Origin: Chiridota heheva
Lineage: Eukaryota > Echinodermata > Holothuroidea > Apodida > Chiridotidae
Assembly (NCBI GenBank): GCA_020152595.1
Contig: JAIGNY010002177.1
Coordinates: forward strand, 1-64,000
Direction: 5' to 3'
DNA length: 64,000 bases
Shown: positions 6,868 to 63,219 of the stretch, in pieces
Layout: the number at the start of each line of letters is the position of its first letter
Position numbering within the stretch: position 1 is the stretch's first letter
Translations under genes and position numbers: made by a program
The notes under the pieces: model-generated
What the model was told of the DNA's origin: nothing
What the model saw: the letters and a program-made list of their open reading frames with translations, nothing else
The model's database searches: none

Positions 6868-7100
6868 ACCCTCGGATGGCCAGTCATCACTAACGGCAGC
6901 GCAGCCATACTAACAAGCTGGCATCAGTCCGACGGTACTACAGGGAGTACTAGGTCTTACGTAGTTATTATACACATCCCTTAGTACGGGTTGACATTGG
7001 GGTTGCCATATGGCCAGCCACCACTAACGGCAGTCATACTAACACGGCTGACATCAGCTCGGCGGTACTACGGGAAGTACTACTATTAGGCCTAGGTCAA
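6868..7100. repeat. Two-copy direct repeat of about 130-150 bp
   Basis: The block with GGCCAGTCATCACTAACGGC, CATACTAACAAGCTGGCATC and GGTACTACAGGGAGTACTA (6875-6955) is repeated in diverged form at about 7010-7090. Between them lies TTATTATACACATCCCTTAG, also found next to the inverted-repeat element near 5577, which suggests related mobile DNA. Confidence 0.65.
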
Positions 7101-7883: not shown

Positions 7884-8509
7884 TGACGTCACTAAATCTG
7901 AATATTCAGTATCAAATACTGACTGATAATTCGAGGTAGCTCAAAACTGCATCTTCGGAGTTACTGCAAAACGACTTCCGGGTCAGCTTTAAATGTTCAA
8001 TCAACAAGGAATAACGGCGGTATAGCGAGGTCAGATTTCCTACTGTCAATGGAAGTGTCAAAACTGCTCCTTTGTCGCACAGCTTGTTCACCGGTTGGTT
8101 TCTCGTCATATCATTATTCAAATGGCGTCATAGAATGTTTCTCATCATATCATTGCTCATGTGACGTCATATAACAACAGAAAATGTGTTCTTCTTTAAC
8201 TTCATCCCTCACCCGGGCCTCTTTGCGTAAAACATGACCGACGCCGTCACCGATTATACTGCCCGACCTGAAATTGTTCGTCCTCGCTGTATTGTCAGAT
8301 TTTCAGGGTATTTTTTTTGACCCCCAGCCTATAAATCTAAGTAAACATTTACTCACCTTCTGCGATATTACTGTCAAGAAGCACGGGGTTTCCTTCCCAG
8401 TGCGTTAGCATGCCGTCATCATCAAATGTGACGTCAAGCCGTCCCAGATACTTCCCATTCTGTCCGCTTTTCACGACCAATGCTTTATCATTAGTATGTA
8501 ATGACGTCA
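7884..8509. promoter_or_regulatory. Cluster of four perfect TGACGTCA palindromes
   Basis: TGACGTCA, the CREB/ATF consensus, occurs at 7884-7891, 8162-8169, 8429-8436 and 8502-8509. The last two lie inside the 5'-nucleotidase exon. A perfect 8-mer is expected about once per 65 kb in random sequence, so four in 630 bp is notable. Whether they act as an enhancer or simply reflect a short repeated motif cannot be told from sequence. Confidence 0.35.
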
Positions 8510-12877: not shown

Positions 12878-15418
<2,541 letters not shown>

Positions 15419-23670: not shown

Positions 23671-24367
23671 TTAAAGGATAAGTTCAGTGGTTAAGCAAGA
23701 CTATCTTATATGAAAGAGGACTTCAAAAGAAACAAAATGGTGTAGAAAGCATTAAAAAATATTTTTTTGTTAAGGAGATATCAAAGGATAAGTTCAGCGG
23801 TCAAGCATGTTTATCTTATATGAAAGAGGACTTCAAAAGAAACAAAATGGTGAAGAAAGCATTCAAAAATCTTTTTCCATTAAGGAGATGCTGTATCTAA
23901 GTTTAAAGTTTTTTATCATTTGTGTAGAAACGACTAAAATCAAGACTACAGTAGTTGTGATGTCATTTCTTTTAGATTCCTCAAAGTCTTTATGTATTCT
24001 ATCATATTTTGTCCTGAGATTTTGTGGCTTAAAAACCATGAAATATGTCAAAAAAAAGTAGTACAACTGAATCTAGGAACGGGTATGTTTTTATAATGTA
24101 CCACTTGAAGAAAGTTTGAGGGGAAAAAAATTAAATATTGAAAAAATATAAATAAACCTTATTTAAAATACATAAACCAATTGTAAAGAATGTGAGGATG
24201 AAGATGTTAACTTTTAATAGTAGACTTACTATAACAGCTACTTCTACACAGATAAGACTGAACTTATCCTTTAAAATCTCCTTAACGGAATAAGATTTCA
24301 CCATTTTTTTGTTGAAGTCCTTTTTAATATAAGATGGACATGCTTGACCAATGATCTAATCCTTTAA
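23671..24367. mobile_element. TTAA MITE M2
   Basis: TTAA at 23671-23674 and again at 24364-24367. The left terminus is AGGATAAGTTCAGTGG and the right terminus is its reverse-complement type (ATGATCTAATCCT). The left arm is duplicated internally: a unit of about 112 bp with CTTATATGAAAGAGGACTTC and AACAAAATGGTG occurs twice. The right arm is inverted from about 24190. No transposase is present. A TTAA target preference is typical of piggyBac-type elements. Confidence 0.8.
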
Positions 24368-39400: not shown

Positions 39401-42400
39401 CATTTTTCAACAAATACTGGACATAATTTATTTTTCTTCAAATATGTGGTGTATTAGATAATAGTTTCAAACATATATGAGTACCATTAACTTCGCTGAC
39501 TGGCTGAGGCGACACAAATATTCTTAAAAAATATCCCATTGACTGTAATGATAAAGTTTTCCCTCCAACTTAGCAAAACCACACTCAGTTCATATGCGGT
39601 CACATCGACTCCGACCTCGAGAATCATAACAAAGCAGAAAATAATTAGATTTCTGGGAGTTTTTAGCTGAGGTATGTGCAATTTTGATCGAAATCACACA
39701 AAATCATGTTTTCTCCCAATGACGGAAAAGATAAGTCCCCTATAGATTGAGTTTCGGTTGAGCCCTATATAAAGCTTAGGCTCAAAATACAGCATATACA
39801 TTCAACTTGATCATTCATGAAAATAATAGATGGCGCTATTTAACTTACAGTTAAACTTAACAAGTTTTAGGGGATTCCCCAATGTCGAGATTTCTCGCCA
39901 TCAGTGTTCTACATATGTTTTCAATGGTGAGAAATCTCGACATCCGCATGATGAGGGTTAACGTTTAAAATACTACATCGTATATGCACAACCCCACAAT
40001 ACATCTTTGTTGTTATTTGGGCTTGTGATGTTCTTTATTTTCCCCGTTTTTTTTCTGTAATGCTTAGGCACCACTTTAAAAAAACTAACCTAGTGGATGC
40101 TCCACTACTGATCCAAATAGTTAATAAACACTTCCATAATTTTGCTGCAGTGTGCTAGTTCAATTTCATTTATAGCACAGGCCTCAATTGTATCAACTCT
40201 CAGGATTTCATGTAATTAAACCATTAAAGAGTAAAGAAGAATGATTAAGCAAAAACTGGACTCACTCCTGGGCATCAATCTCCATGATTTGCGACACTTT
40301 GTTCCATCCAAATCCTAAGAACCGTATGTCATAAGGAGGGCAGTCCTTCTTTTTAATTACTACATACGGCTCAAAGTCCTGTTCCCATTGTACCTACGGA
40401 TGAGGTGGTCAAAATATCACAAATTCAAATCGTTTAAAGGATTAGTTCAGGGGTGAAGCATGACCATCTTATATGAAAGAGGATTTTTAAAGAAACAAAA
40501 TGGTGAAGAAAGCATTCACAACTCTTATTCTGTTAAGGATATATTATAGGATTAGTTCAGGGGTCAAGCAAGACCATCTTATATGAAAGAGGATTTCAAA
40601 AGAAACAAAATGGTGAAGAAAGCATTCAAAAAATCTTATACCGTTAAGGAGATATTTAAGGATTAGTTCAGGGGTCAAGCAAGACCATCTTATATGAAAG
40701 AGGACTTTTAAAGAAACAAAATGGTGAAGAAAGCATTCAAAAAATCTTATACCGTTAAGGAGATATTTAAGGATTAGTTCAGGGGTCAAGCAAGACCATT
40801 TTATATGAAAGAGGACTTTTAAAGAAACAAAATAGTGAAGAAAGCATTGCAAAATCTTATTCCGTTAAGGAGATATTTAAGTTTAAAGTTCTGAATCAAT
40901 TGGGTAGAAATGACTGAAATCAGACTAGTTGTGATGTCACAGCCTCAGATTCCTGCAAGACTTTATGTATTCTATCACATTTTGTCCTTCAGTTTTGTGG
41001 CTTAAAAAAAAATCTAAAATCCCATCACATGTGTGATGTCTATGCAAATATGTAGTTAATTTCAAATCACTGTTCATTTATTTTATTGTTCATGTATACT
41101 TATCTGTAATTTTATTGTTATATGTACAGCGCCTTGAGTATCCATTAGGATGGATATGTGTGCGTTATAAATCTATTTATTATTATTATTTTTATTATCA
41201 TTATTACATAAAAAATGACTCAAGGCGACACAAAAATGCATATATATTTCAACGCAACTGTCTGAGAAAAATTCTGAAAGCCAGATGGCCGACCATTATT
41301 ACAAATGACGAAATATACAGAAAATCAGAACTAGAATCCGTTTTTTTTTAAAGAAGATGGAAAAATATAGGACATGTACTGCACAGAGATGCCACACATT
41401 ACACCAGAGTGGCTCTGCCCTGCATGGACCTCAGAGAGCAGAAGAAAGTGAGGAAGACCGAAAACAACCTGGAGACGGGAGCTTGAATAGGAGAGGGAAA
41501 TACTGGAAAGGAGTGGCTGGAACGAAGTCATTCAGGTGGCCCAAGACATGGAGACGGATGCTTGGATAGGAGAGGGAAATACTGGGAAGGAGTGGCTGGA
41601 ATGAAGTCATTCAGGTGGCCCGAGACCTGGAGACGGATGCTTGGATAGGAGAGGGAATTACTGGGAAGGAGTGATTGGATCGAAGTCATTCAGGTGGCCC
41701 GAGACCTGGAGACGGAAGCTTGGATAGGAGAGGGAACTGCTGGGAAGGAGTGGCTTGAACCAAGTTATTCAGGTGGCCCAAGACATGGAGACGGAAGCTT
41801 GGATAGGAGAGGGAATTACTGGGAAGGAGTGGCTGGAACCAAGTCATTCAGGTGGCCCAAGACCTGGAGACGGAAGCTTGGATAGGAGAGAGAAATACTG
41901 GGAAGGAGTGGCTGGAACCAAGTCATTCAGGTGGCCCAAGACCTGGAGACGGAAGCTTGGATAGGAGAGGGAATTACTAGGAAGGAGTGGCTGGAACGAA
42001 GTCATTCAGGTGGCCCGAGACCTGGAGACGGATGCTTGGATAGGAGAGGGAATTACTAGGAAGGAGTGGCTGGAACGAAGTCATTCAGGTGGCCCGAGAC
42101 CTGGAGACGGAAGTTTGAATAGGAGAGGGAATTACTGGGGAGGAGTGGATGGAACGGAGTCATTCAGGTGGCCCGAGACCTGGAGACGGAAGCTTGGATA
42201 GGAGAGGGAATTACTGGGGAGGAGTGGATGGAACGGAGTCATTCAGGTGGCCCAAGACCTGGAGACAGAAGCTTGGATAGGAGAGGGAATTACTGGGGAG
42301 GAGTGGATGGAACGGAGTCATTCAGGTGGCCCGAGACCTGGAGACGGAAGCTTGGATAGGAGAGGGAAATACTGGGAAGGAGTGGTTGGAATGAAGTCAT

Positions 42401-45400
42401 TCAGGTGGCCCGAGACCTGGAGACGGAGGCTTGAATAGGAGAGGAAATTACTATGAAGGAGTGGCTGGAACGAAGTCATTCAGGTGGCCCGAGACCTGGA
42501 GACGGAAGCTTGAATAGGAGAGGGAATTACTGGGAAGGAGTGGCTGGAACGAAGTCATTCAGGTGGCCCGAGACCTGGAGACAGAAGCTTGGATAGAAGA
42601 AGGAATTACTGGGGAGGAGTGGATGAAACGAAGTCATTCAGGTGGCCTGAGACCTGGAGACGGAAGCTTGGATAGGAGAGGGAATTACTGGGAAGGAGTG
42701 GTTGGAACGAAGTCATTCAGGTGGCCCAAGACCTGGAGACGGAAGCTTGGATAGGAGAGGGAATTACTGGGAAGGAGTGGTTGGAACCAAGTCATTCAGG
42801 TGGCCCAAGACCTGGAGACGGAAGCTTGGATAGGAGAGGGAAATACTGGGAAGGAGTGGTTAAAACGAAGTCATTCAAGTGGCCCGAGACCTGGAGACAG
42901 AAGCTTGGATAGGAGAGGGAATTACTGGGAAGGAGTGGTTGGAACCAAGTCATTCAGGTGGCCCGAGACCTGGAGACAGAAGCTTGGATAGAAGAAGGAA
43001 TTACTGGGGAGGAGTGGATGAAACGAAGTCATTCAGGTGGCCTGAGACCTGGAGACGGAAGCTTGGATAGGAGAGGGAATTACTGGGAAGGAGTGGTTGG
43101 AACCAAGTCATTCAGGTGGCCCGAGACCTGGAGACAGAAGCTTGGATAGAAGAAGGAATTACTGGGGAGGAGTGGATGAAACGAAGTCATTCAGGTGGCC
43201 TGAGACCTGGAGACGGAAGCTTGGATAGGAGAGGGAATTACTGGGAAGGAGTGGTTGGAACGAAGTCATTCAGGTGGCCCAAGACCTGGAGACGGAAGCT
43301 TGGATAGGAGAGGGAATTACTGGGAAGGAGTGGTTGGAACCAAGTCATTCAGGTGGCCCAAGACCTGGAGACAGAAGCTTGGATAGAAGAAGGAATTACT
43401 GGGGAGGAGTGGATGAAACGAAGTCATTCAGGTGGCCTGAGACCTGGAGACGGAAGCTTGGATAGGGAGAGGGAATTACTGGGAATGAGTGGTTGGAAAG
43501 TCATTCAGGTGGCCCAAGACCTGAGACGGAAGCTTGATAGGAGAGGGAATTACTGGGAAGGAGTGGTTGGAACCAAGTCATTCAGGTGGCCCAAGACCTG
43601 GAGACGGAAGCTTGGATAGGAGAGGGAAATACTGGGAAGGAGTGGTTAAAACGAAGTCATTCAAGTGGCCCGAGACCTGGAGACAGAAGCTTGGATAGCA
43701 GAGGGAAATACTGGGGAGGAGTGGATGGAACGAAGACATTCAGGTGACCCGAGACCTGGAGACGGAAGTTTGGATAGGAGAGGGAATTACTGGGAAGGAG
43801 TGGTTGGAACCAAGTCATTCAGGTGGCCTGAGACCTGGAGACGGAAGCTTGGATAGGAGAGGGAATTACTGGGAAGGAGTGGTTGGAACGAAGTCATTCA
43901 GGTGGCCCGAGACCTGGAGACGGAGGCTTGAATAGGAGAGGAAATTACTATGAAGGAGTGGCTGGAACGAAGTCATTCAGGTGGCCCGAGACCTGGAGAT
44001 AGAAGCTTGAATAGGAGAGGGAATTACTGGGAAGGAGTGGTTGGAACCAAGTCATTCAGGTGGCCCGAGACCTGGAGACAGAAGCTTGGATAGAAGAAGG
44101 AATTACTGGGGAGGAGTGGATGAAACGAAGTCATTCAGGTGGCCTGAGACCTGGAGACGGAAGCTTGGATAGGAGAGGGAATTACTGGGAAGGAGTGGTT
44201 GGAACGAAGTCATTCAGGTGGCCCAAGACCTGGAGACGGAAGCTTGGATAGGAGAGGGAATTACTGGGAAGGAGTGGTTGGAACCAAGTCATTCAGGTGG
44301 CCCAAGACCTGGAGACAGAAGCTTGGATAGAAGAAGGAATTACTGGGGAGGAGTGGATGAAACGAAGTCATTCAGGTGGCCCGAGACCTGGAGACGGAAG
44401 CTTGGATAGGAGAGGGAATTACTGGGAAGGAGTGGTTGGAACGAAGTCATTCAGGTGGCCCAAGACCTGGAGACGGAAGTTTGGATAGGAGAGGGAATTA
44501 CTGGGAAGGAGTGGTTGGAACCAAGTCATTCAGGTGGCCTGAGACCTGGAGACGGAAGCTTGGATAGGAGAGGGAATTACTGGGAAGGAGTGGTTGGAAC
44601 GAAGTCATTCAGGTGGCCCGAGACCTGGAGACGGAGGCTTGAATAGGAGAGGAAATTACTATGAAGGAGTGGCTGGAACGAAGTCATTCAGGTGGCCCGA
44701 GACCTGGAGATAGAAGCTTGAATAGGAGAGGGAATTACTGGGAAGGAGTGGTTGGAACCAAGTCATTCAGGTGGCCTGAGACCTGGAGACAGAAGCTTGG
44801 ATAGAAGAAGGAATTACTGGGAGGAGTGGATGAAACGAAGTCATTCAGGTGGCCTGAGACCTGGAGACGGAAGCTTGATAGGAGAGGGAATTACTGGGAA
44901 GGAGTGGTTGGAACAAGTCATTCAGGTGGCCCAAGACCTGGAGACGGAAGCTTGGATAGGAGAGGGAATTACTGGGAAGGAGTGGTTGGAACCAAGTCAT
45001 TCAGGTGGCCCAAGACCTGGAGACAGAAGCTTGGATAGAAGAAGGAATTACTGGGGAGGAGTGGATGAAACGAAGTCATTCAGGTGGCCTGAGACCTGGA
45101 GACGGAAGCTTGGATAGGAGAGGGAATTACTGGGAAGGAGTGGTTGGAACGAAGTCATTCAGGTGGCCCAAGACCTGGAGACGGAAGCTTGGATAGGAGA
45201 GGGAATTACTGGGAAGGAGTGGTTGGAACCAAGTCATTCAGGTGGCCCAAGACCTGGAGACGGAAGCTTGGATAGGAGAGGGAAATACTGGGAAGGAGTG
45301 GTTAAAACGAAGTCATTCAAGTGGCCCGAGACCTGGAGACAGAAGCTTGGATAGCAGAGGGAAATACTGGGGAGGAGTGGATGGAACGAAGACATTCAGG

Positions 45401-48400
45401 TGACCCGAGACCTGGAGACGGAAGTTTGGATAGGAGAGGAATTACTGGGAAGGAGTGGTTGGAACCAAGTCATTCAGGTGGCCTGAGACCTGGAGACGGA
45501 AGCTTGGATAGGAGAGGGAATTACTGGGAAGGAGTGGTTGGAACGAAGTCATTCAGGTGGCCCGAGACCTGGAGACGGAGGCTTGAATAGGAGAGGAAAT
45601 TACTATGAAGGAGTGGCTGGAACGAAGTCATTCAGGTGGCCCGAGACCTGGAGGCGGAAGCTTGGATAGGAGAGGGAATTACTGGGAAGGAGTGGTTGGA
45701 ACGAAGTCATTCAGGTGGCCCGAGACCTGGAGACGGAGGCTTGAATAGGAGAGGAAATTACTATGAAGGAGTGGCTGGAACGAAGTCATTCAGGTGGCCC
45801 GAGACCTGGAGATAGAAGCTTGAATAGGAGAGGGAATTACTGGGAAGGAGTGGCTGGAACGAAGTCATTCAGGTGGCCCGAGACCTGGAGACAGAAGCTT
45901 GGATAGAAGAAGGAATTACTGGGGAGGAGTGGATGAAACGAAGTCATTCAGGTGGCCTGAGACCTGGAGACGGAAGCTTGGATAGGAGAGGGAATTACTG
46001 GGAAGGAGTGGCTGGAACGAGGTCATTCAGGTGGCCTGAGATAGAGAAAAATGGAATTCTGTGATAATGGCCCCAATCTCCACAGGAGCGAGCGGTAAGG
46101 TAAGGTTGATTTGGAAAACATTTCCAAAATTAATAAATACCATCAACGTATCAATAGTATTATTTTTTGTTCCTAACACAGTAGTACTGACCCGTGATAC
46201 AGGAATCATGATCAACATCTCTACAGCACATATCTGCTCTGGGGAACTGTATATAACTTTTCAAATCTGAATTGGAAATTTCTGGAAAACTAATTTAAAT
46301 AGTGTCACATGGCTGAGATTCACGTGTCCCTAATGAACCAATCGTATACTGGGGGAATCTTATTGACCAATCAAATACTGGGGAATCTTGGCCGTCTGCA
46401 CAATTTATGCACAGTTTAGTATAAAAAAATGTTTTCAAGTGCGTTATACATGAAAGTAATGAAAGCGTGTATTAATGCTTACACTTTTTCCTCAAAACTG
46501 CACCTGATTGGTTGAGAAACAAAGAAAATATTACCCCACTACAGCATTTGATTGGTCGAGGTGCTGTAGAAATTACATTAGGAAAAACTGAGTTTGAAAA
46601 GATACATTCTATTTGACTAAAGTACTATGATATTGCTACTTTTAACTAATTCTTAAAAATGCATTATGTGACGTACTGTATAGGGTGTTGTGGCGGTCCT
46701 CCATCTTGCAAAGTTGGTGGGGGCATGGCCTTTCTGCCAAACGTGGTACCTGAAGGTGAAGAGAGTCCCCATGTCCAACTGGCGGATCAGCTCGACTTTT
46801 GACTTGGGAAAATTCACTCTGTATCGGAGGGTTTCAAATGCAGGCACAACTAAAGCCTAAGAAAGAAACGAAAGTGATCGAATGATTCATTTGATTGATG
46901 AGAATTTATACTGGTACATCGACAGGAAATGTTACATGGTGTCAAAGGCTGAATTATACCAAAATAATGTAAATGGTGAGACTGGGGAAAAAAGAAGGAT
47001 GCAAGCCACTTTAAATACAGTGATAAGACAAAATATATTAACATTGAATGTCTAAATGCAGATGACTGACAATAGAATTAAAAAACGGACAAATAATATG
47101 AACTCTTTTAACAAAAATAATTTAACTTAACCCTTCGTGCTCCACGTGGTCATGACACGACCAATTGGACATGCACTTTTCCAAAAATTATTTTACTCAA
47201 ATAGGCCCACAGCAGTAATCCTGGTATCACTTGAAAGTTTGTTTGTTTGTTTGATGAAGGCTTAATGACACCATGGCAGAGGGGGGTCAAATTGTGCCTG
47301 AGAGATAAGATCATTCCAGAGTAAGAAAGGAAAAGAAAAAAAACAGGGGGAGATTAAGAGAAACACAAGAACTAAAAGCCAGAAAGCTGGGATTGAGAGA
47401 GGAGGTGCATGGGTGAAAAAAACAAAGTAGAGAAAGGGGGGTTGGAGAGGAGAAGTAAATATGGTTGCAGAGGGAAGCATGATGAAGGAAGGAGATCATT
47501 TTTTAGATTCGGCTATTGAGTTGTGGGGAGGGAGGGAAGTTCTGGGAAGGTTGTAAAGGGGGCAAGCAAGGAGAACGTGAGGGACTGTGAAGGTGCAATG
47601 GCAATTGTTGCAGAGGGGTTTGGGGGAACCAATAAGGAGGTGAGAGTGACCTATTCTAAGACGGGTAATGTGAATGTTGTCAACACGGGAGCGGTTGTGG
47701 GAGGTGGGTTTGATCAGGATGGTGGAGTTTGTTATCAATTTGGGAGTTCCATGAGGTTTGCCAGCGGTCACGTACAAGGGAAGTGATAAGTGGTTTGATG
47801 TCACAAAGGGTTTTGGGAAATGGGGTAGGGAGGGGGAAAGGGGGGGGGGGGATTTGTAGGCAAGCTTAGCGGCTGCATCTGCCCTGTCATTGCCAAGAGT
47901 ACTTTTCCTGCAGAGGGTGGGCAAAAGGAGTTTCCGGAAGCGGAGGTGGGATGTGAAGTTATCCCATTTAGGATTGAGTAAAGAAGTAACAACAGCCTTG
48001 GAGTCGGAGAAGGTGGCAAAGTGGCTGAGTGCAGGGTACTCTATAAAGTCGAGGGCGAGGAGGATGGCCTTTGCCTCGGCTGAAAAGATGGACGAGTAGT
48101 CGGGAAGTCTGCTACTGAAGGTGATGTCTTAGATGGCGGCAGCAGCAGCTGTCTTGTTGCCTTCCTTGGAGCAATCAGTATAGATGGAGGTGTAGTTTGA
48201 GAATTGGACTTTGATTTGGTTGTGGAGATTGATGAAGAGGTTAGGGTGGATTTGGGTTTTGTGATGAGTGGAGAGGCCCAGGTGGATAGAAGGGAGGGGG
48301 GTGGCTCAAGGAGGAAAAGTGGGGCAGGAGAAGGTGCCAAGAGTGGCGGGGTTGATGCTGAGATGGAGGAGGTCTGATTTAATGCATAAGCTAAAGAAAG

Positions 48401-51400
48401 AAGATAGGGTTTTAGTCCTATCAAAAAGGGTGGAGAAATTGGGGTACCTAATGAGGTTGTAAACAGGGTTCTGGGTGTTGGTGAGGATTCTAAAAGCATA
48501 GGAGAGGCTAAGCATTCTACATCTAAGTAGAAAAGGGGGTTCGTTGGCTGGTAATTGGGGAGGTCCTGTAGGCACCTAGACAAAACCCGAGGGCTTCATT
48601 TTGGATGGTGTTGATGTGGTTGAGGTATGAGTTGTGAGCGGCACAGTAGACAATAATATTGCTGTAGTCAAGCTTGGCACGAATGGTGAGCCTGAAGATT
48701 TTGAACAGAGCATGGAGGTTTGCACCCCAAGTGGTGTTGAAGAGAAGGCGGAATATGTTAAGGGAGCTGTTGCATTTCTGTTTCAGGTTGGTAATATGTT
48801 GCTTGTAGGAGAGCTTGGGGTCTAGATTTCAACCCAGGAACTTTGTGTGTTCAACTTTAGGGACGCGATTGCCATTGAGCACGAGGTTCGGGTTTTGATG
48901 GAGGTTGTTGAAATGACAGAAGTGCATGCAGACTGTCTTTGGAGAATTTAAAACCGTTATTGTTGCACCAGACTTGCAGCTGGTTGAGGCTGAGTTGGAG
49001 TCTATTTTCGACAGGAGCAAAGCTAGGGGGGGGGGGAGTAGAAGATGGTGAAATCGTTCACGTAGAGGGTACGTTTGATGTTGGGGCCAAGGTTGTTCAC
49101 GATGTCATTAATACTCAGGTTGAAGAGAAGGGGGAGAGGATGCTGCCTTGGGGGACGCCCTTTTCTTGGGGGTACGAGTTGGAGAAGGTGTGGCCTATAC
49201 GAACTTGTAACTGCCTGGGTGAGAGGATGTTTTGAATAAAGATAAGGAGGTGGTCTCTGAGACCAATGGTGTAAAGTTTGGCGATAATGCCGTATTTCCA
49301 AGTAGTGTCGAAAGCTTTCTCGAGGTCAATAAAGATAGCAGTGAGGTGTTCCTTTTTTGCAAAGGATTCCCGAATAGCGGTGTCAAGCGTAATTAACTGG
49401 TCTAGGGTATTGCGACATTTCCAGAAGCCGCTTTGGTGAGGGGAGAGGATGCTGTTGGTCTTATGGAACCAGTTTAGTCTCTGGTTAATGATCCTTTCCA
49501 TAATTTTACAGAGACAGCAGGTGAGGGCGATGGGGCGGTAGCTGGAGGGGTCAGTACTGTCCTTTCCCGGTTTAGGGACAGGGGTGACAATAGCTGTCCT
49601 TCAGATAGGAGGAAAGGAGTGTGAGGACAAAATGTGGTTAAGGAAGGTGAGTAGGGTGGTGGTGGCCTTGTTGGGGAGGTGTTTCAGGAACTGGTAGGGG
49701 ATGTTATCTGGGCCCTTGGAAGTGCAGCCAGCATCGTGGATGGCTTGGTTTAATTCAGAAAGGGTGAGAGGGGTGTTATAGTATTGTCGGAGGGAAAGGT
49801 GGTACTCCGGGCTTCATTGCGAGCTTTTTTGGTTTTGAAAGCATTGGGGTAGTTGGCCGAGGATGAGATGTTGCTGAAAGAGGCAGCGAGGTGGTTAACG
49901 ATGACCTTTTTTTGCGGTGAGAAGGTTACCATTCCAGGAGAGATGGGAGACTTGCCCACCCTGCCGTGGAAGTGCTAACCATTCTCCAAATCTTCTTAGT
50001 TGGGGTGTTGGTGGTGAGAGAAGAGATGAAGTTGTTCCAAGTGTTGGTTTTACTGTCGTCAATAGTGCGCCTGGGTTTGGCACTGCTAATGCGAAAGAGG
50101 TTGAGCTTGTGGGTGGTCGGGTTAGTTTTTGAAGTTCCTGAGGGCCCTTTTCCTGTTCTTGATGGCGGTCATCAGAGAACCAGGGGTTGGGGGAGGGGTG
50201 ATTAGGGAATTTGGAGGTTTTAGGAATAGAGCAGGTGGCGATGTTGATAAGGATATTACTGAAGTTTGACATGGGATCCTCACCATCGAGGAGATGGGGG
50301 AAGAGGTGTGAGTTACAGAGGGTTTCGAAAAGGGGCAGTCAGCCTTCTCGAGGTTCCAATTGGGGGTGTGGTCAGTGGGGGTTTGAAGGTTGGAGTGTAT
50401 TAGAAGAAGGTAATGGTCACTACCACAGAGATCAGCAGTGACCCTCCAGCTAAAATGAAGGAGGAGGTTGGGGGAACAGATAGACAGGTCAATACAGGTA
50501 AGGGAGCCTGTAGCAGGATGAAGGTAGGACGGGGAGTTACTGTTAAGCAAGGAGAGGCTGTGCTGCCGAAGAGTGTTTTCGATGAGCTTGCCTCTGGGGT
50601 ATTAGAGCCCCACAGAGGTTTGTGGGCATTGAAGTCCCCAAGAAGAATGAAGGGGATGGGAGCTGAGAGATGAGGTTGTTAAGGCTGGTTGGCTGAATGT
50701 TGGAGTTGGGGATGATAGATATTGCCAAGAGTGATGATTTTGTGGAGGGAGATAGATATACAGATGGCCTGAAGGTCGGTGTGCACATGAACAGGGCTGT
50801 GTGGGATATTGTGTCTAACGAGAATAGAGACGCCCCCACAGGCCCTGTCGGCATCCACTTGATGTTTGTGATAGCAAGCAAAGTTGTTGAGGGAATAATT
50901 GTCAGTGGTTTTCAAGAAGGTTTCTTGTAGGCAGAAGACGACCGGGTTAAAGGTGGTGCCAGAAGGTCAATTTCTTTAGAATTGGCCTAAGGTTCCTTAT
51001 GTTCCATTGTCTAATGTTGTGAATGTTATTGTTATTGTTTATGTTGCATGCCATAAGGAGGAAGGGGTTATCTTAAGAAAGATCTGTTTGATCTGAGTTG
51101 GCTAAAAAAAAAATCTGCCTTGACAAGATTCAAACTCCTTATGTTTGACACAAAAGCAAATCGCTCAAAGCCCAATGGCCTTATGGATTGGCCACATCAA
51201 CACTGTAAGCGAGAATGTTGCTGCATTATTAACAGAGTGTGACATATGATCAAAAGAGGCGCATTTTGCAATTGATTGAAATTTCAACCAATCAGAAAAT
51301 TAGAACTACAATGTCCTTATGCCGATATCGCACCTTTAACTAATCCTTCAAATACAAATGCATCACCCACCTTCTTTGTTTTGTCCATCTCCTGCACCTC

Positions 51401-57400: not shown

Positions 57401-60400
57401 GTGTAGGTGATGTCATAAAGGCAGATTCAAGAAAATTCTTTAGCACTTTAATTTAAAAAAAAAAATCTTTAATACTTTTGAGTGGAGGATACATGAGCAG
57501 ATTGGCAAAGCATGTTCTTATAAAGTGCATATTATACCTCATCTCAATAAATAAACAAAAAATAAACCAGACATCGCAAAAGATACTAATCCCCTCGCCG
57601 CTAATAACATGCTTTCCAGCCTCTGTCACACCTGCCATCCCACCCTCTGTTCCACATGCCATATCATGCTACTTCCCTCCCTACAGGAAATCATACATGA
57701 AACTCCAGATACCATTCCACCACATGACCCATATGTTATCAGACCTGCAATCAAGATGGCATCCCATCATAGGCCTTGCCACCCTGTCCCATATACCGTC
57801 ACCCTGTCCCACATGCCATCCCTCCCTGTGCCACATCACATGCCATCCCTCCTTGTACCAAGAGCCATCTCACCCTAAAAGTGAGAAAGTAATAGGCCTC
57901 TTGGATCATCATGAATATTCCTTTAAGTCTTTACTAATCTATATTCTGTGATTTAATCATTACGACAGTGCGTGTGACGATGCATCAAGGCAACTATAAA
58001 GTCTTTACTAATCTATATTCTGTGATTTAATTATTACGACAGTGCGTGTGACGATGCATCAAGGCAACTATAAAGTCTTTACTAATCTATATTCTGTGAT
58101 TGAATTCATTACGAGGACAGTGCGTGTGACGATGCATCAAGGCAACTATAAAGTCTTTACTAATCTATATTTTGTGATTGAATTCATTACGAGGACAGTG
58201 CGTGTGACGATGCATCAAGGCAACTATAAAGTCTATACTACTCTATATTCTGTGATTGAATTCATTACAAGTACAGTGCGTGTGACAATGCATCAAGGCA
58301 ACTATAAAGTCTTTACTAATCTATATTCTGTGATTGAATTCATTACGAGGACAGTGCGTGTGACGATGCATCAAGGCAACTATAAAGTCTTTACTAATCT
58401 ATATTCTGTGATTTAATTATTACGACAGTGCGTGTGACGATGCATCAAGGCAACTATAAAGTCTTTACTAATCTATATTCTGTGATTGAATTCATTACGA
58501 GGACAGTGCGTGTGACGATGCATCAAGGCAACTATAAAGTCTTTACTAATCTATATTCTGTGATTGAATTCATTACAAGTACAGTGCGTGTGACAATGCA
58601 TCAAGGCAACTATAAAGTCTCTACTAATCTATATTCTGTGATTTAATTATTACGACAGTGCGTGTGACGATGCATCAAGGCAACTATAAAGTCTTTACTA
58701 ATCTATATTCTGTGACTGAATTCATTACAAGGACAGTGCGTGTGACGATGCATCAAGGCAACTAAAGTCTTTACTAATCTATATTCTGTGATTGAATTCA
58801 TTACAAGGACAGTGAGTGTGACGATGCATCAAGGCAACTATAAAGTCTTTACCAATCTATATTCTGTGATTGAATTCATTACGAGGACAGTGCGTGTGAT
58901 GATGCAACAAGGCAACTATAAAGTCTTTACCAATCTATATTCTGTGATTGAATTCATTACGAGGACAGTACGTGTGATGATGCAACAAGGCAACTATAAA
59001 GTCTTTACCAATCTATATTCTGTGATTGAATTCATAACGAGGACAGTGCGTGTGACGATGCATCAAGGCAACTATAAAGTCTTTACCAATCTATATTCTG
59101 TGATTGAATTCATTACGATGACAGTGCGTGTGACGATGCATCAAGGCAACTATAAAGTCTTTACTAATTTATATTCTGTGTTTGAATTCATTACAGGGAC
59201 AGTGCGTGTGATGCTGCATCAAGGCAACTATAAAGTCTTTACTAATCTATATTCTGTGATTGAATTCATTACAAGGACAGTGCGTGTGACAATGCATCAA
59301 GGCAACTATAAAGTCTTTACTAATCTATATTCTGTGATTGAATTCATTACGAGGACAGTGCGTGTGACGATGCATCAAGGCAACTATAAAGTCTATACTA
59401 ATCTATATTCTGTGATTGAATTCATTACGAGGACAGTGCATGTGATGCTGCATCAAGGCAACTATAAAGTCTTTACCAATCTATATTCTGTGTTTGAATT
59501 TATTACGAGGACAGTGCGTGTGATGCTGCATCAAGGCAACTATAAAGTCTTTACTAATCTATATTCTGTGATTGAATTCATTACGAGGACAGTGAGTGTG
59601 ATGATGCATCAAGGCAACTGTAAAGTCTTTACTAATCTATATTCTGTGATTGAATTCATTACGAGGACAGTGCGTGTGATGCTGCATCAAGGCAACTATA
59701 AAGTCTTTACTAATCTATATTCTGTGATTGAATTCATTATGAGGACAGTGCGTGTGACGATGCATCAAGGCAACTATAAAGTCTTTACCAATCTATATTC
59801 TGTGATTGAATTCATTATGAGGACAGTGCGTGTGACGATGCATCAAGGCAACTATAAAGTCTTTACTAATCTATATTCTGTGATTGAATTCATTACGAGG
59901 ACAGTGCGTGTGACGATGCATCAAGGCAACTATAAAGTCTTTACCAATCTATATTCTGTGTTTGAATTCATTACAGGGACAGTGCATGTGATGCTGCATC
60001 AAGGCAACTATAAAGTCTTTACTAATCTATATTCTGTGATTGAATTCATTACGAGGACAGTGCGTGTGACGATGCATCAAGGCAACTATAAAGTCTTTAC
60101 TAATCCATATTCTATGATTGAATTCATTACGAGGACAGTGCGTGTGACGATGCATCAAGGCAACTATAAAGTCTTTACTAATCCATATTCTGTGTTTGAA
60201 TTCATTACAAGGACAGTGCGTGTGACGATGCATCAAGGCAACTATAAAGTCTTTACTAATCTATATTCTGTGATTGAATTCATTACAAGTACAGTGCGTG
60301 TGACAATGCATCAAGGCAACTATAAAGTCTTTACTAATCTATATTCTGTGATTGAATTCATTACAGGGACAGTACGTGTGATGCTGCATCAAGGCAACTA

Positions 60401-63219
60401 TAAAGTCTTTACTTATCTGTATTCTGTGTTTGAATTCATTATGAGGACAGTGCGTGTGACGATGCATCAAGGCAACTATAAAGTCTATACTAATCTATAT
60501 TCTGTGATTGAATTCATTACGAGGACAGTGCGTGTGACGCTGCATCAAGGCAACTATAAAGTCTTTACTAATCTATATTTTGTGATTGAATTCATTATGA
60601 GGACAGTGCATGTGATGCTGCATCAAGGCAACTATAAAGTCTTTACTTACAGCAATGTACTGATAATCAAGGTAGTAAAGATGTGTTCGGTGCATGAGGA
60701 TCCTCTCTCTCCTGAATTCATAACATGCATCATCTTCATCCAAGTTTCTCAACTAGAAAGGAAATCAAGAAGAAAATTCATTTTAAAATCGATATGATGG
60801 TAGATGAAACACTCATAAACAGATTAGAGAAATCCTTGCATGTGATTGGTAGACTAGAAAAATATACTCATGTTCGAATACAATTGACCTAACTGAGTTA
60901 GTTGATTGACAGCTTTTTCAACAGAATCACCATACGAATTTGCCTAACAACAAAAACTGCGTAACTAAGCAGGGCAAAATCCTACGGGGTTCTAGTACAG
61001 TACATTTCAGTTATCTCTATGATCTAGCTAGAGGTGCGCACTCATGCAGTCAATGTTATTTACTGCACAAAACAAATTTTCTGCATACAGAAACTGAGTG
61101 ACGACAAGATGGTGAACAAAAGAATACACCTACGGGCTTTGTAAATCCGATTCCCTTTACCTAGAACATTTAGCAAACAGTATTTTCTTGATTGCTTTTG
61201 CTAAAATCTCTAAAGATCCGGAGAAGTGCCATAAATGGATCAAAACATGGTACAGGCCACATCAGCATCTAAATGTCAATGCATTAGTCATCCATGATGC
61301 GGATTTGAAGTTTGTTTGCCCCACCTAGTTACCGTGTTGCTATGGTGGGTGTGGCTTATTTCCGTACTCGGAGAGGTAAATTAGTAGATATCATAAAAAT
61401 ATTTTGCGCATAGTTTCTACACTTGTAAGATTTCTGATATGAACAAACTCTGCGCCATTCACTCAAATGGAAATTCACCAGTGTTGCATACAGTCAACTT
61501 ATCATTGAGCTTCTTTTTTTGTAACAATTCTTTGGTGAGATTGAGAACAACCCATACTAGAGGAAAATGTAGTAAAGGATCATTTTCATGCTCTTCCTTT
61601 TCATTAGTACAGACACTGCTTTAAAACTTTTGCAAATTTCAGACTACAAATTATATGCATCATTCCACAAGATAAACTTTGCTTCAAAGGACATTTCATA
61701 CTCCTTGGGAAATGCTGCTCCTCTTTAAAAAAACGCTTTCGTGTTAGGTGGAAATCAATAATATGGTTCATTGAACAGCTTGTATGAAGTGTTGAACAGA
61801 TAGCAGTTTTGTGGTTTTGGGAAATAAAGAAAAAGATAACTGTTACTTCAACTGACAGCTCTGCTCTTTGTGAAAGCCGGTTGAAGTGTCCCTGGTTTTA
61901 AGCAAAGCCATCTCTAATGTCTTGAAAAACATGTAGTTTGCTTGAAACACAAAAGACAGTGTATATCAAAATACTGCATACATACTGTATATCACTTTAT
62001 ATGCATTTTTTTGCACCTGGATGTATAGCACTAGATAACTTAGATTCTGCTGGTGCACATATAAAAGCTTCCAAATTATTCTAATAAATCACATAAATCA
62101 TTCACTTTTGTTTCATTTTGGTTCGTGGGGAGAATAATTTTGTGATCAACATGCCATTTCAAACTTAGGCAATTTTTTATTTGAATTTGATTAGTATTTA
62201 TGAACCAGAATCAAGTCAAAAGGTGCCTTGGTCTCTATGGCTCATTCAAAACCAGGTATGACATCCAGAGAATAGGCATAGGCCTAAGATGTTAGCAGAG
62301 GCATACCAGCCTATCTGTGACTGCACTGCGTTACTGACTGCACTGCAGCAAAGCCCTGCTTAGCATAGTCCTTGGGACTTGAGAATGGTCTTGGTTTGAT
62401 GAAGGCTTAACGGCACCATGACAACGAAGGTCAAATTGTGTCTGAGAGGTAAGATCATTCTAGAGGTAGAAAGGAAAGGAAACAGGGGGAGAATGAGAGA
62501 AATTCAAGAACAAAAGGTCAGAAAGCTGTGATTGAGAGGGAAGGTGCATTGTTGAAACAAAAACAAAGTAGAGAGGGGGTGGAATAGGAGATTTAAATAT
62601 GGTTGTAAAGGGAGGCATGATGAAGGAAAGAGATAAAATGCTTTGAGAAAGTTCTGCCTTTGAAAGCACTATATAACTTAAGTAAAATGCCATCAAGCCT
62701 GGAAGGCTAACAGAGCTGGTGCTTATACCCATTTCCATGGGGCTAAGTGGACGAGAATACTTGACTCCAATGCATGGGACATCAGTCCATCACATCAAGT
62801 CCCAGATGAACCTGGTGCTCATTCACAGCTGAGTGAACAAATAGGATAAAGTGTCTTGCTCAAGGACACAGCGCAGGGCCCTGGGTGAAATTCCATCCCG
62901 GTACCTTTTGATTACAAGACCGACACCTTAACTACTGGGTTACTGCACTCGCCATCTGTCCAATTACCAATTACCTTTAAGTAAAACTATATTTCACATT
63001 TATAGACTGATAACTTTTTGAATACCTTCACTTGAAGCGTCTGATTGACTTTCCCATCCTCGCAATTAAACAGCTCCCTCCTGAGCAGATTGCCGTCGTA
63101 CTCCAAGAATGTGAGGTACAGATTCCTGAAGAACTCAAGTGTTTGTTCTTTACTTTTAGCTTCTGAGGGGAATTCCAGTGAATGGCTTTGAGAAGATCTG
63201 TTTCATCTGTGTAGCAAAG
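33372..63219 (-). CDS. LARGE1: LARGE-type matriglycan synthase gene, last nine coding exons
   Basis: Gene-level entry; exons are listed separately. In the family LARGE is a Golgi type II membrane enzyme with two catalytic domains. A GT8 domain adds xylose, and a GT49 domain adds glucuronic acid, building the repeating Xyl-GlcA chain on alpha-dystroglycan that binds laminin-type ligands. The window holds roughly the last 390 residues: the end of GT8, the linker and all of GT49. All introns are GT-AG and the phases join without gaps (0,0,0,1,0,0,0,2,2). The conserved DIDFLP metal-binding motif of the second domain is present. The transmembrane and GT8 N-terminal exons lie beyond 64000. The symbol follows vertebrate usage; LARGE1 and LARGE2 cannot be separated here. 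A one-base deletion in the first exon shown needs resolving. Confidence 0.93.
33535..33615. repeat. CA-rich microsatellite
   Basis: Imperfect ACAC and ACATAC repeats in the LARGE intron, about 70 bp upstream of the last-exon acceptor in gene orientation. Confidence 0.85.
33955..34045 (-). repeat. tRNA-derived SINE head or tRNA pseudogene
   Basis: On the minus strand GGTAGCTCAGCTGGCAGAGT is a near-perfect tRNA A-box and D-arm, and GGTCCCAGATTCAAGG resembles a B-box. The anticodon and acceptor stems do not pair well, so it is not a functional tRNA. A SINE body may extend leftward toward 33640. Confidence 0.6.
34100..35230. other. LARGE intron, no supported feature
   Basis: Intronic sequence between the 58-bp array and the tRNA-like head. 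No gene or clear repeat was recognised. Confidence 0.5.
35245..36160. repeat. 58-bp minisatellite in LARGE intron
   Basis: About 15 units of roughly 58-65 bp, each with CACTCACTGAACCTGTCTC, AAGAACCCGCTCCAGTCTG and TCTATGCCAAGTCATG. Some units are shortened. Unit variants (TCTTTGCC or TCTATGCC, CCCGCTCC or CCTGCTCC) alternate. Confidence 0.93.
36310..36490 (+). repeat. Dispersed repeat R-A, partial copy 3
   Basis: Matches the right half of R-A at 9.5 and 28.9 kb: GATTATGACCATGGAAAGT, GCTGGATTGTGGTTTCTG and GAGGTTTAGACTTAATG. It runs directly into R-D. Confidence 0.75.
36490..36835 (+). repeat. Dispersed repeat R-D, copy 2
   Basis: Matches 25618-25930: GTTGGCTGAATTACCAAACA, GCGATCATGTGGTCTGCTAG, TGCGATATACCAA. 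In this copy CTGCTAGATCTGG is locally duplicated. Confidence 0.8.
37310..37770 (+). repeat. THAP-bearing dispersed repeat, copy 2
   Basis: Same family as 23230-23580 and 60900-61360. The plus strand begins a frame MVNKNCSYG at 37498. After frameshifts it gives NPEKCHK and [10 protein letters not shown], which fit the C2CH THAP pattern (Cys-x-x-Gly-Cys start, DPEK-x-x-x-W-I, then a Cys-x-x-His region, here decayed). Stops and shifts make it non-coding. Its right end is about 80 bp from a LARGE exon donor. Confidence 0.65.
37853..37951 (-). CDS. LARGE1: LARGE exon (EFIVLPN segment)
   Basis: Acceptor ATTTTCAG, donor GTAAGT, phase 2 in and phase 2 out. The peptide reads [20 protein letters not shown], then [12 protein letters not shown]. 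It matches the GT49 region [19 protein letters not shown] of the family. Confidence 0.94.
38807..38849 (+). promoter_or_regulatory. CRE plus YY1-like sites upstream of THAP relic
   Basis: A perfect TGACGTCA (38807-38814) and a GCCATTTTG (38841-38849, YY1-like) lie 90-130 bp before the THAP start codon. This layout fits a TATA-less promoter, but no expression evidence exists. Confidence 0.3.
38941..39108 (+). pseudogene. THAP-domain first exon with two nonsense codons
   Basis: An ATG opens [13 protein letters not shown], then [16 protein letters not shown]. This is the start of a THAP zinc-binding domain (C2CH, DNA-binding). The next codon is TGA (39043-39045), where the invariant Trp (TGG) belongs. 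The frame continues [10 protein letters not shown], then TAG (39088-39090), then HF, exactly the Cys-x-x-His-Phe end of the domain with the variable residue replaced by a stop. The exon closes with CAG and a GTATGT donor. About five residues between the Trp position and the Pro are missing. It lies in a LARGE intron on the opposite strand. No downstream exon was recognised. Confidence 0.72.
39255..39645. repeat. Imperfect inverted repeat
   Basis: Arms near 39255-39400 and 39500-39645 are diverged reverse complements, sharing CTCGAGGTCGGA, CATTGCAGTCAATGGGA (CATTACAGTCAATGGGA) and ATATTTTTT. The spacer is about 100 bp. No open frame is supported. It may be a MITE or a diverged gene-fragment duplication. 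Confidence 0.55.
39882..39943. repeat. Short strong hairpin
   Basis: ATGTCGAGATTTCTCGCCAT (39882-39901) pairs with ATGGTGAGAAATCTCGACAT (39924-39943). One position differs and makes a G-U pair in one RNA sense. The loop is 22 nt. Confidence 0.75.
40266..40393 (-). CDS. LARGE1: LARGE exon (DFEPYVV-FGWNK segment)
   Basis: Acceptor CCGTAG, donor GTGAGT, phase 0 in and phase 2 out (128 nt). The peptide has [20 protein letters not shown] and [19 protein letters not shown]. The EPYVV and GFGWNK blocks are highly conserved in the GT49 domain. Confidence 0.95.
40434..41030. mobile_element. TTAA MITE M5 with four tandem subunits
   Basis: TTAA at 40434-40437 then AGGATTAGTTCAGGGG. The left arm of about 110 bp occurs four times in tandem (starting near 40434, 40549, 40657 and 40769), each with GGATTAGTTCAGGGGTCAAG, CTTATATGAAAGAGGA and GTTAAGGAGATAT. 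The family interior follows (GTTGTGATGTCACAGCC). A right terminus was not found. It starts about 40 bp upstream (gene sense) of a LARGE acceptor. Confidence 0.75.
41110..41205 (+). mobile_element. LINE/SINE 3' end with ATT tail
   Basis: TGTACAGCGCCTTGAGTATC and GTGCGTTATAAATCTATTT followed by TTATTATTATT is the typical 3' terminus of L2/CR1-like elements. Only the last 90 bp or so are recognisable. Confidence 0.6.
41215..41463 (+). mobile_element. Non-LTR retrotransposon ORF2 C-terminus, left flank of satellite
   Basis: Plus-strand translations, with small frameshifts, give [32 protein letters not shown]-type sequence, then [11 protein letters not shown]. This is the conserved C-terminal tail of endonuclease-RT non-LTR elements (CLR-x-I, W, ITN-x-E, RR-W-x-IGH, RGRP-x-TWRR). 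It runs without a break into the first unit of the 79-bp array. Confidence 0.8.
41464..46041 (+). repeat. 79-bp satellite, about 58 copies, derived from LINE ORF2 tail
   Basis: About 4.6 kb of 79-bp units. Each has CTGGAGACGGAAGCTTGGAT, AGGAGAGGGAATTACTGGGA, AGGAGTGG and AACGAAGTCATTCAGGTGGC. In one frame a unit reads TWRRKL, ERE, then [16 protein letters not shown], which is the LINE C-terminal signature. Unit variants form blocks that recur in the same order several times, so there is higher-order structure from later segmental duplication. Since 79 is 3n+1, the many 63-codon open frames are artefacts. The array sits in a LARGE intron, antisense to the gene. Confidence 0.95.
46042..46090 (+). 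mobile_element. LINE ORF2 C-terminus, right flank of satellite
   Basis: After the last unit the frame WNEVIQVA continues, with one stop codon in place of Gln, as [12 protein letters not shown]. This is the usual end of this class of ORF2 (AQDREKWR). The array is therefore bounded on both sides by the same ancestral reading frame. Confidence 0.75.
46091..46676. other. LARGE intron, no supported feature
   Basis: Intronic sequence between the satellite and the next exon. TTGACCAATCAAATACTGGG and similar short motifs recur, but no element was defined. Confidence 0.45.
46677..46856 (-). CDS. LARGE1: LARGE exon (PAFETLRYR segment)
   Basis: Acceptor TTTCTTAG, donor GTACGT, phase 0 both ends (180 nt, 60 codons). 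The peptide has [20 protein letters not shown], then [32 protein letters not shown]. These are signature blocks of the LARGE GT49 domain. Confidence 0.96.
47243..51065 (-). mobile_element. RNase-H-bearing LINE (I/Nimb-like), near-complete ORF2
   Basis: Minus-strand order: APE endonuclease ([10 protein letters not shown] near 51000; FCLQETFL near 50935, with the catalytic Glu; [18 protein letters not shown]; then [18 protein letters not shown] near 50440, with the SDH motif). Next is the RT ([52 protein letters not shown]). Last is RNase H, ending [13 protein letters not shown] (about 47890). It closes in a CAAACAAACAAAC tail at 47243. The YADD box reads YVND and there are many stops and frameshifts, so it is inactive. 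No ORF1 is seen, so the element is 5' truncated at about 51065. It fills most of a LARGE intron in the same sense as the gene. Confidence 0.88.
51371..51526 (-). CDS. LARGE1: LARGE exon with DID motif
   Basis: Acceptor TTCCGACAG, donor GTGGGT, phase 0 both ends (156 nt). The peptide is [20 protein letters not shown], then [20 protein letters not shown] and [15 protein letters not shown] is the metal-binding triad of the glucuronyltransferase domain. The upstream intron contains several degenerate copies of this exon's first 50 or so bases together with its acceptor. Confidence 0.97.
51715..52560 (-). repeat. Degenerate tandem copies of the LARGE DID-exon 5' edge
   Basis: At least four copies of the acceptor-side edge of the 51371-51526 exon lie in the intron: near 51722-51765, 51960-52010, 52120-52170 and 52485-52540. 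Each contains a version of GGTAATTAACAAGATAAAAT / TGCTGTC, which on the minus strand is (A)CAG followed by CAATTTTATC, as in the true exon start. The copy at 52.5 kb keeps AGACAG and CAATTTTATCTTG. Intron sequence next to the exon (GCAACAAG, CTTTGTA-AAGTTA, TGCCAGCAG-CGTAAGAAATAC) repeats along with it. The frames are broken. Confidence 0.75.
52785..52925 (-). mobile_element. 3' fragment of the RNase-H LINE
   Basis: GTTTGTTTGTTTAATGAAGG, then GGTCAAATTGTGCCTGAGAG and GATCATTCCAGAGGTAGG match the 3' end of the element at 47243-51065. It is a severely 5'-truncated insertion with a short CAAA-type tail on the minus strand. Confidence 0.85.
53061..53765 (-). repeat. Degenerate tandem copies of the preceding LARGE exon's 3' edge
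   Basis: Three copies (about 53061-53125, 53396-53462, 53696-53762) of ATCATTGAATACTATATGGT, GGTAGGCAACATTCTTGAAA and GCCATA mirror the donor-side end of the exon at 54189-54313. Each is followed, in gene sense, by a donor-like GTAAGT, GTATGT or GTAAGC. The repeat unit of about 300-335 bp also carries intron sequence (TAAATTAAGGATGATTTTTC, TTTTACAACAG). Confidence 0.8.
54189..54313 (-). CDS. LARGE1: LARGE exon (PISLALY segment)
   Basis: Acceptor TTCGACAG, donor GTAGGT, phase 1 in and phase 0 out (125 nt). The peptide has [20 protein letters not shown], then [20 protein letters not shown] and G. It matches the family's PISLALYLSDAEAQQFL and NVGYHIVYKEG at the start of the GT49 domain. Confidence 0.96.
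54445..54992. mobile_element. TTAA MITE M6
   Basis: TTAA at 54445-54448 then AGTAACATTCCCATGG, and CCATGGGAATATTTCT then TTAA at 54989-54992. The arms of about 210 bp are inverted. AATTCATCATTATGATATCA, TTTCTGTACTA and TTGATGTATTTCTTTGAAAA on the left return as their complements on the right. A TTAA target site fits piggyBac-type transposition. It lies in a LARGE intron. Confidence 0.85.
55325..55735. mobile_element. Element R-B, copy 2
   Basis: Same element as 28450-28862: ACTGCTAAAAAATTTGG at the start, GTGGGAGTAGTTGTTATCTT inside, AAGCAAAGCCATTTCTAA at the end. Confidence 0.75.
55945..56366. repeat. 212-bp tandem duplication abutting a LARGE exon donor
   Basis: Two copies (about 55945-56153 and 56154-56365) share TTGCTACAATGGTTT, CATTTGAGCTAATTTTGCCT, GTATACAGTGTGATGTCATA, and a short hairpin CAGTCTGT / ACAGACTG. 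The second copy ends at the sixth base of the intron that starts at 56370 (gene sense). Confidence 0.88.
56371..56452 (-). CDS. LARGE1: LARGE exon (TLVAQLS segment)
   Basis: Acceptor CTTCTAG, donor GTGAGT, phase 0 in and phase 1 out (82 nt). The peptide is [20 protein letters not shown], then AICKHWE. It matches [20 protein letters not shown] at the start of the GT49 domain. Confidence 0.96.
56585..56815. repeat. ATC/ATT trinucleotide-rich tract
   Basis: Low-complexity ATC, ATA and CAC runs give His-, Ile- or Asp-rich open frames in different readings. These are not genes. Confidence 0.9.
57095..57926. mobile_element. TTAA MITE M7 inserted in the 78-bp repeat
   Basis: TTAA at 57156-57159 then AGGAATATTCC, and GAATATTCCT then TTAA at 57923-57926. 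Left of the element, 57095-57155 is a diverged 78-bp repeat unit (TGTATTCTGTGCTTGAATC, CATCCTGGCAACTA). Right of it the next bases are GTCTTTACTAATC, the continuation of the same unit. The interior has a roughly 100-bp tandem duplication (GTGATGTCATAAAG, CAGATTCAAGAA) and a degenerate CCCACATGCCATC tract (57620-57870). Confidence 0.85.
57927..60648. repeat. 78-bp minisatellite ending at a LARGE splice donor
   Basis: About 35 units with GACAGTGCGTGTGACGATGC, ATCAAGGCAACTATAAAGTC, TTTACTAATCTATATTCTG and TGATTGAATTCATTACGAG. The first units lack four to five bases; the rest are 78 bp, so the plus strand stays open for 669 codons (58788-60797). That frame has a 26-residue period, is antisense to LARGE and has no known domain. 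The last unit merges with the GTAAGTAAAG donor of the LARGE exon at 60651. Confidence 0.95.
60651..60752 (-). CDS. LARGE1: LARGE exon ([13 protein letters not shown] segment)
   Basis: Acceptor TTTCTAG, donor GTAAGT, phase 0 both ends (102 nt, 34 codons). The peptide is [20 protein letters not shown], then [14 protein letters not shown]. It matches the linker between the two catalytic domains ([27 protein letters not shown]). Confidence 0.96.
60900..61360 (+). repeat. THAP-bearing dispersed repeat, copy 3 (best preserved)
   Basis: Plus strand: an ATG at 61109 gives MVNK. In another frame CKSDSRYPEHLAN-type residues follow, then [14 protein letters not shown] and [12 protein letters not shown] (61205-61310). 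Cys-x-Tyr-Gly-Cys, DPEK and the Trp of WIK fit a THAP zinc-binding domain, with the final Cys-x-x-His decayed. The flanks shared with 37.3 kb include TGATTGACAG, GAATTTGCCTA and GTTTGTTTGCCCCACCTAGT. Confidence 0.65.
61600..61925. mobile_element. Element R-B, copy 3 (diverged)
   Basis: GACACTGCTTTAAAACTTTT at the start and CCTGGTTTTAAGCAAAGCC near the end match R-B at 28450-28862. The middle is shorter. Confidence 0.65.
62397..62640 (-). mobile_element. 3' fragment of the RNase-H LINE
   Basis: GATGAAGGCTTAACGGCACC, GTCAAATTGTG and GAGGCATGATGAAGG match the 3' end of the element at 47243. It is 5' truncated. Confidence 0.85.
62690..62952 (-). mobile_element. tRNA-derived SINE, copy 3
   Basis: Same family as 22553-22819: TTTCCATGGGGCTAAGTGG, GGGACATCAGTCCATC, GTGTCTTGCTCAAGGACAC. 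The minus-strand head reads GTGCAGTAACCCAGTAGTTA then GGTACCGGGATGGAAT (decayed B-box). Confidence 0.75.
63026..63219 (-). CDS. LARGE1: LARGE exon with one-base frameshift
   Basis: Acceptor TTTCACACAG, donor GTATTC after AAG. The peptide starts [20 protein letters not shown], then LKVKNKH. The next codons must read (x)[19 protein letters not shown] and [18 protein letters not shown], which lies in another frame. One base is missing between 63138 and 63139, just after the His codon. The exon is 194 nt, while phase 0 ends on both sides require 195. This is the end of the GT8 domain (family: [20 protein letters not shown]). Everything else in the gene is intact, so a sequencing or assembly error is the first explanation. 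A true null allele is the alternative. Confidence 0.93.

Follow-up and report, generated by a model that had tools for sequence, protein, structure and literature searches.

A 79-bp minisatellite within the tail of a truncated LINE copy of Chiridota heheva and its unarrayed relatives across the genome

Introduction

The starts of minisatellites are poorly understood, because the single-copy ancestor has usually been lost. Human tandem repeats derived from transposable elements (TEs) have grown at or after the insertion of single TE copies, and the survey describing them lists 300 that are flanked by direct repeats of 5-20 bp and 6,817 of 7,276 that are unexplained by known initiation models (PMC3389668). 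According to the same survey, known mechanisms account for only 6% of human TE-derived minisatellites; a model based on direct repeats of 5-10 bp and hotspots in some TEs are described, and the formation of Alu minisatellites via short direct repeats is credited to Jurka and Gentles (cited in PMC3389668). Satellites can also derive from LINE ORF2. The examples given in a second source are PROsat of Phodopus, Pvc20 of the seal and chicken HinfI, from the CR1 3'UTR/ORF2 (PMC9659126), and two further articles review the same field (PMC12628747; PMC6947457). No report of the series of LINE-tail arrays described below was found in the literature searched, whose coverage leaves out most subscription journals.

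The Array and Its Host Element

The window analyzed here is a stretch of 64,000 nucleotides of Chiridota heheva DNA (contig JAIGNY010002177.1, positions 1 to 64,000). It contains one tandem array of period 79, to which TRF assigns 58.0 copies with 91% matches (Table 1), and alignment bears out the first-pass annotation in placing this array within a LINE tail. Cut at the unit start, it comprises 58 head-to-tail units (copy number as assembled) of about 4.6 kb in total, with 34 distinct sequences and a mean pairwise difference of 8.1%. Spacing is exactly 79 bp in 52 of 57 cases and 76 to 78 bp in the remainder, and a 23-base segment of the unit matches the window 56 times at up to three mismatches, against an expectation of 0.00 from 100 shuffles.

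Alignment to a LINE tail consensus reveals that the array splits the tail of a 5'-truncated non-LTR retrotransposon, which begins at consensus position 11 and finishes with GGTAAGGTAAGG. The match spans 41205-46105, somewhat more than the 41215..46090 originally given. As had been proposed, a single LINE tail is the source of the unit and of both edges, judging by this alignment and by the unarrayed state of the sequence in other genomic copies, and the unit corresponds to a defined segment of the consensus (Table 1). The window copy diverges from the consensus by 10.2%, within the 5 to 13% found among the examined copies, with 25 differences over 248 positions of its left flank. Pfam searches of the window LINE tail, of the tails of two other copies (L055 and L033) and of the upstream ORF of a third (L053) returned nothing above cut-off. 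The sister copy L053 has an RVT_1 match at 7066-7461 (E 3.8e-10), upstream of its LINE tail at 7682-8103, which makes the element a non-LTR retrotransposon of which the window copy is a truncated example without the reverse transcriptase (RT). We take the element to be RTE-like. Minus-strand reading frames, at least one of them from another retroelement, occupy 47496-50601, where RVT_1 is matched at 49115-49600 (minus strand, E 7.1e-23) and an RNase-H-like match below cut-off lies at 47496-48128 (minus strand).

Table 1. Features of the LINE copy in the window and arrays formed from the LINE tail at other loci.
Location	Strand	Feature	Period and copies	Basis or breakpoint overlap
41205..41466	+	Left part of 5'-truncated LINE copy, ORF2 C-terminal coding remnant, to ...GRPKTT		Consensus alignment from position 11; translation; same stretch adjoins the unit in other genomic copies
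41467..46041	+	Tandem array, 34 distinct units	79 bp x58	LINE tail consensus positions 277-355; TRF, unit splitting, junction pattern
41467..41545	+	Unit 1, among the least derived units, TAG in ORF2 frame		Translation, unit comparison
42573..45961	+	Interior units U15-U57, on average more derived, multi-unit block repeats		At lags 9 and 21, as many as 5 successive units match
46042..46105	+	Right-hand remainder of this LINE copy, ORF2 end and GGTAAGGTAAGG tail		Consensus alignment ends at 46105; similar tail ends many other copies
L013		LINE-tail array	15 bp x10.9	
L028		LINE-tail array	138 bp x2	Overlap 1 base
L031		LINE-tail array	59 bp x14	Overlap 1 base
L040		LINE-tail array	TRF periods 17, 30 and 34, x2 to 2.4	
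L041		LINE-tail array	23 bp x35	Overlap 3 bases
L044		LINE-tail array	38 bp x12	Overlap 7 bases
L045		LINE-tail array	23 bp x64 to fetched end; x66 in the longer L059, with LINE again at its end	Overlap 6 bases, right edge from consensus
L046		LINE-tail array	23 bp x32	

Flanks and unit had been read as one continuous ancestral frame. This describes the LINE tail consensus, which is open in a single frame over 43-46 residues and changes frame farther upstream. In the window copy the ORF2 peptides quoted by the first-pass annotation are present in the left flank and right edge, and the ORF2 frame resumes after the last unit, but the same translations contain in-frame stops that the annotation had omitted. 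The frame was probably broken already at the birth of the array: TAG is present in all 58 units, and the LINE base is missing from every unit at 8 of 79 sites (a locus-private state in the one stretch tested) and present in 1 of 58 at a ninth. Since 79 is not a multiple of 3 (3 x 26 + 1), the frame shifts from one unit to the next, and 35 to 60 stops across the array in each of the six frames rule out a coding repeat. There is no indication of a function for the array, which most likely arose neutrally in a genome where minisatellites form often.

Unarrayed Relatives and Growth in Situ

The 1.1-Gb genome (3744 contigs) was searched with 401 bp of the array. Among the best candidates, which were scored, 18 hits fell in the window array, and each of 25 other contigs had one match, about 55 to 85 bp long. 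Twenty of these 25 loci were fetched first and aligned to a query made of the left flank, one unit and the right flank; in every case the alignment crosses the unit, at 71.5 to 83.5%. Matched LINE sequence borders the unit left and right in 16 of the 20. It is practically confined to the right side in L014 and L025, starting within 6 bases of the unit, and to the left side in L017 and L021, ending within about 8 bases past it. The unit is single in 19 of the 20 loci and double in L028, inside that locus's own 138-bp duplication. When the left flank plus unit 1 served as the query, the best 40 of 72 candidates yielded 39 places outside the window contig, so the LINE family exceeds the sample. 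The examined set comprises 45 distinct other LINE loci, in which L009, L011, L017 and L019 were replaced by the longer fetches L055, L054, L052 and L053.

TRF detects no 79-bp array in these 45 loci, one of which runs into N (L050) and two of which lack most of the unit (L031 and L043). Nor did the genome searches, in which the best candidates were scored, find a 79-bp array elsewhere, whether flanked by LINE sequence or not. The evidence for absence elsewhere is strong, though incomplete since the best candidates alone were scored. The unit is a TE segment, the rest of the TE flanks it and other copies hold it unarrayed, as expected of a TE-derived minisatellite. The dispersed LINE copies preserve the single-copy ancestor of the array, which makes breakpoints, shared mutations and growth pattern readable and allows several births in the same sequence to be compared.

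Was the array formed at this locus, or did it arrive with the element? The pattern spanning a unit-to-unit junction has 59 genome matches, 56 in the array and 3 elsewhere at the two-mismatch limit, and the reversed-pattern control gives 2. With the junction search returning one locus, the array is better termed a long single-locus minisatellite than a "satellite", the name first given to it, since it is not genome-wide. The variant pattern AACGAAGTCATTCAGGTGGC, across a GAG-to-TTC change that comprises three adjacent changes and resembles one complex event, has 57 genome matches, 56 of them in the array (reversed control, 1). At least that stretch of changes therefore belongs to the window LINE copy, and the reading of the unit-common changes as the mark of a LINE subfamily is ruled out for the one stretch tested. 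With the junction pattern and the tested stretch of unit-common changes private to the locus, the array very probably grew in situ from one decayed copy.

The competing account is that the duplication was already present in the LINE and arrived by retrotransposition as part of an array-bearing subfamily, as has been suggested for human LTR12 (PMC3389668). Transposition may indeed have carried one array of the family, since L046 and L058, both with 23-bp arrays, have a unit variant and an 8-bp insert in common. For the 79-bp unit, transposition is highly improbable and is rejected on the junction counts, the few matches away from the window being at control level; the TRF result for the other LINE loci points the same way.

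Relative to the LINE consensus, the founder unit has changed at about 9 of 79 bases, and the units lie a further 8% from this founder. Together these changes exceed those of the left flank, so a simple clock fits badly, and some "founder" changes may have spread while the array was young, or mutation is faster within it. Decay probably preceded duplication, and gene conversion could have spread some of the early changes.

Other Arrays in the Same LINE Tail

Tandem duplications of LINE-tail sequence occur in 8 of the 45 other loci, with periods of 15, 23, about 33, 38, 59 and 138 bp (Table 1). Excluded from this count were L030 and L038, whose 14-bp x1.9 repeats within the tail are too short; L039, where an insert has its own arrays with units that are not LINE-tail; L015, whose array adjoins the tail; L027, with 15 bp x2.9 just beyond the tail; L050, which runs into N; and L058, which came from a directed search. 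In the region 1025-1365 of L058 a 23-bp x6.6 array lies 5' of the LINE tail, and the stretch before it, which we take to resemble the N-terminal part of RT, perhaps belongs to an internally deleted element. In L015 the abutting array (1-1335) has 31 copies of a 43-bp unit that reads DLDYADDM, presumably the RT active-site box, suggesting an array derived from a LINE RT domain.

The motif CCAGAG occurs twice in the LINE consensus, 23 bp apart. Three loci with 23-bp arrays, L041, L045 and L046, differ from one another by 14.0 to 16.3%, and none is among another's seven nearest copies, so separate origins are favored; the variant and insert common to L046 and L058 count against full independence, and the array may have moved with the element.

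Arrays in the LINE tail (15.27 kb) were compared with those in the flanks of the same 45 loci by one-sided binomial tests. At 1.9 copies or more, 10 arrays lie in the tail and 73 in the flanks (1.26-fold, p 0.30), or 8 and 73 (1.00-fold) without the two arrays of the non-LINE insert in L039. At 2.9 copies or more the figures are 7 and 38 (1.71-fold, p 0.14; 1.46 without L039), at 5 or more 6 and 24 (2.34-fold, p 0.064) and at 9 or more 6 and 18 (3.14-fold, p 0.023); counting the three 23-bp arrays as one reduces the last two to 1.56-fold (p 0.28) and 2.09-fold (p 0.15). With an excess of 1.0- to 3.1-fold depending on threshold, and mostly not significant, a special tendency of the tail is not established, and the case for it as a preferred array site is weakened.

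Could the ORF2 end of this family nevertheless give rise to minisatellites repeatedly? Beside the 79-bp array stand no fewer than six other periods (15, 23, about 33, 38, 59 and 138 bp), sizes from a dimer to about 66 copies and a 23-bp array that may have arisen more than once at CCAGAG, and we keep the idea as a tentative and somewhat doubtful reading, at odds lowered because the excess over the flanks is mostly not significant. If true, it would offer replicate births in a single genome with a known ancestor, and the rules of initiation would be open to direct measurement.

In large part the picture is of a genome making arrays in many places, with LINE copies marking the ancestral sequence. 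Minisatellites make up about 24.5% of the window. A 78-bp array of 35 copies occupies 57925-60647; its period is divisible by 3, and an open frame of 683 aa (58746-60797) runs through most of it. A TA run of about 620 bp lies at 13963-14586. A common dispersed sequence is present at 23673-23889 and 40437-40881, with 2 and 4 copies of a unit of about 110 bp, and related sequence flanks the LINE on both sides in L014, on another contig.

Initiation and Growth

With breakpoint overlaps measured from hand-chosen edges, the edges and junction of the 79-bp array have a single base, A, in common. The near-identical CAACCTGGAGACGG and CAAGACATGGAGACGG that the first-pass annotation offered as microhomology for the first exchange mark where units 1 and 2 begin, one copied from the other, rather than the breakpoints. 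Slippage between short direct repeats, as in the Haber-Louis model, agrees with some sister arrays. Edge repeats within its 5-10 bp range occur at L044 (7 bases, GATAGAG, 38-bp array) and at L045 (6 bases, right edge from the LINE consensus), where CCAGAG is intact as in the consensus, 3 of its bases remaining at L041. As the seed of the 79-bp array such slippage is very unlikely, given the one-base overlap, outside that range, and given that, at offset 79, exact repeats in the LINE tail consensus reach at most 4 bases, those of that length lying away from the breakpoints. The overlap instead makes an event of end-joining or template-switch type the most likely origin of the first duplication.

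Template switching might also have occurred during insertion, the reverse transcriptase jumping back on the RNA near its 3' end in target-primed reverse transcription, with expansion following later. Within the 427-bp tail examined, the window array and the 8 other arrays built of LINE-tail units are all confined to the final ~215 bp, and the one-base overlaps of the 79-, 138- and 59-bp events could arise in this manner. However, the sample was picked by similarity to the window tail, so that the rest of the LINE was scarcely covered, the array adjoining the tail in L015 looks RT-domain-derived from what is presumably an RT motif, arrays form in non-LINE flanks as well, and the unit-common changes resemble post-insertion decay. 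We therefore regard a jump during insertion as unlikely.

The account that we consider very probable begins with a 5'-truncated LINE copy, about 0.4 kb of tail, that would have inserted at this locus and then decayed. A 79-bp piece of the ORF2 end would next have been tandemly duplicated in situ, and two adjacent copies could then have expanded to 58 units through ordinary homologous exchange or slippage, with later exchanges duplicating blocks of several units. At 23 informative sites the mean number of derived states is 4.5 in U1-14, 6.5 in U15-57 and 4 in U58. The longest runs of matching units, with at most one difference each, span five units, a length reached in 1 of 500 shuffles of unit order. 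Outer units nearer the LINE, together with block repeats, fit unequal exchange or block duplication, which would leave the ends less homogenized.

Comparison With Known Systems

The window array is a clear and unusually legible example of a known process, the birth of a TE-derived minisatellite, and several such births have taken place in this LINE family. As with human TE-derived tandem repeats, the array grew within a single TE copy; unlike the human set, in which the unexplained repeats mostly have two units, the arrays here lie at a LINE ORF2 end in a 1.1-Gb genome and reach up to about 66 copies (PMC3389668). The family resembles Alu, as that survey portrays it, in that one TE family seeds arrays and the 23- and 38-bp arrays have direct repeats at their edges, and the 79-bp array differs from Alu minisatellites in having none (PMC3389668). 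Like the units of PROsat, Pvc20 and HinfI, the unit derives from, or is similar to, part of a LINE ORF2. Those three are listed as satellite DNAs of a species (PMC9659126), whereas the window array is one locus with the LINE still attached on both sides.
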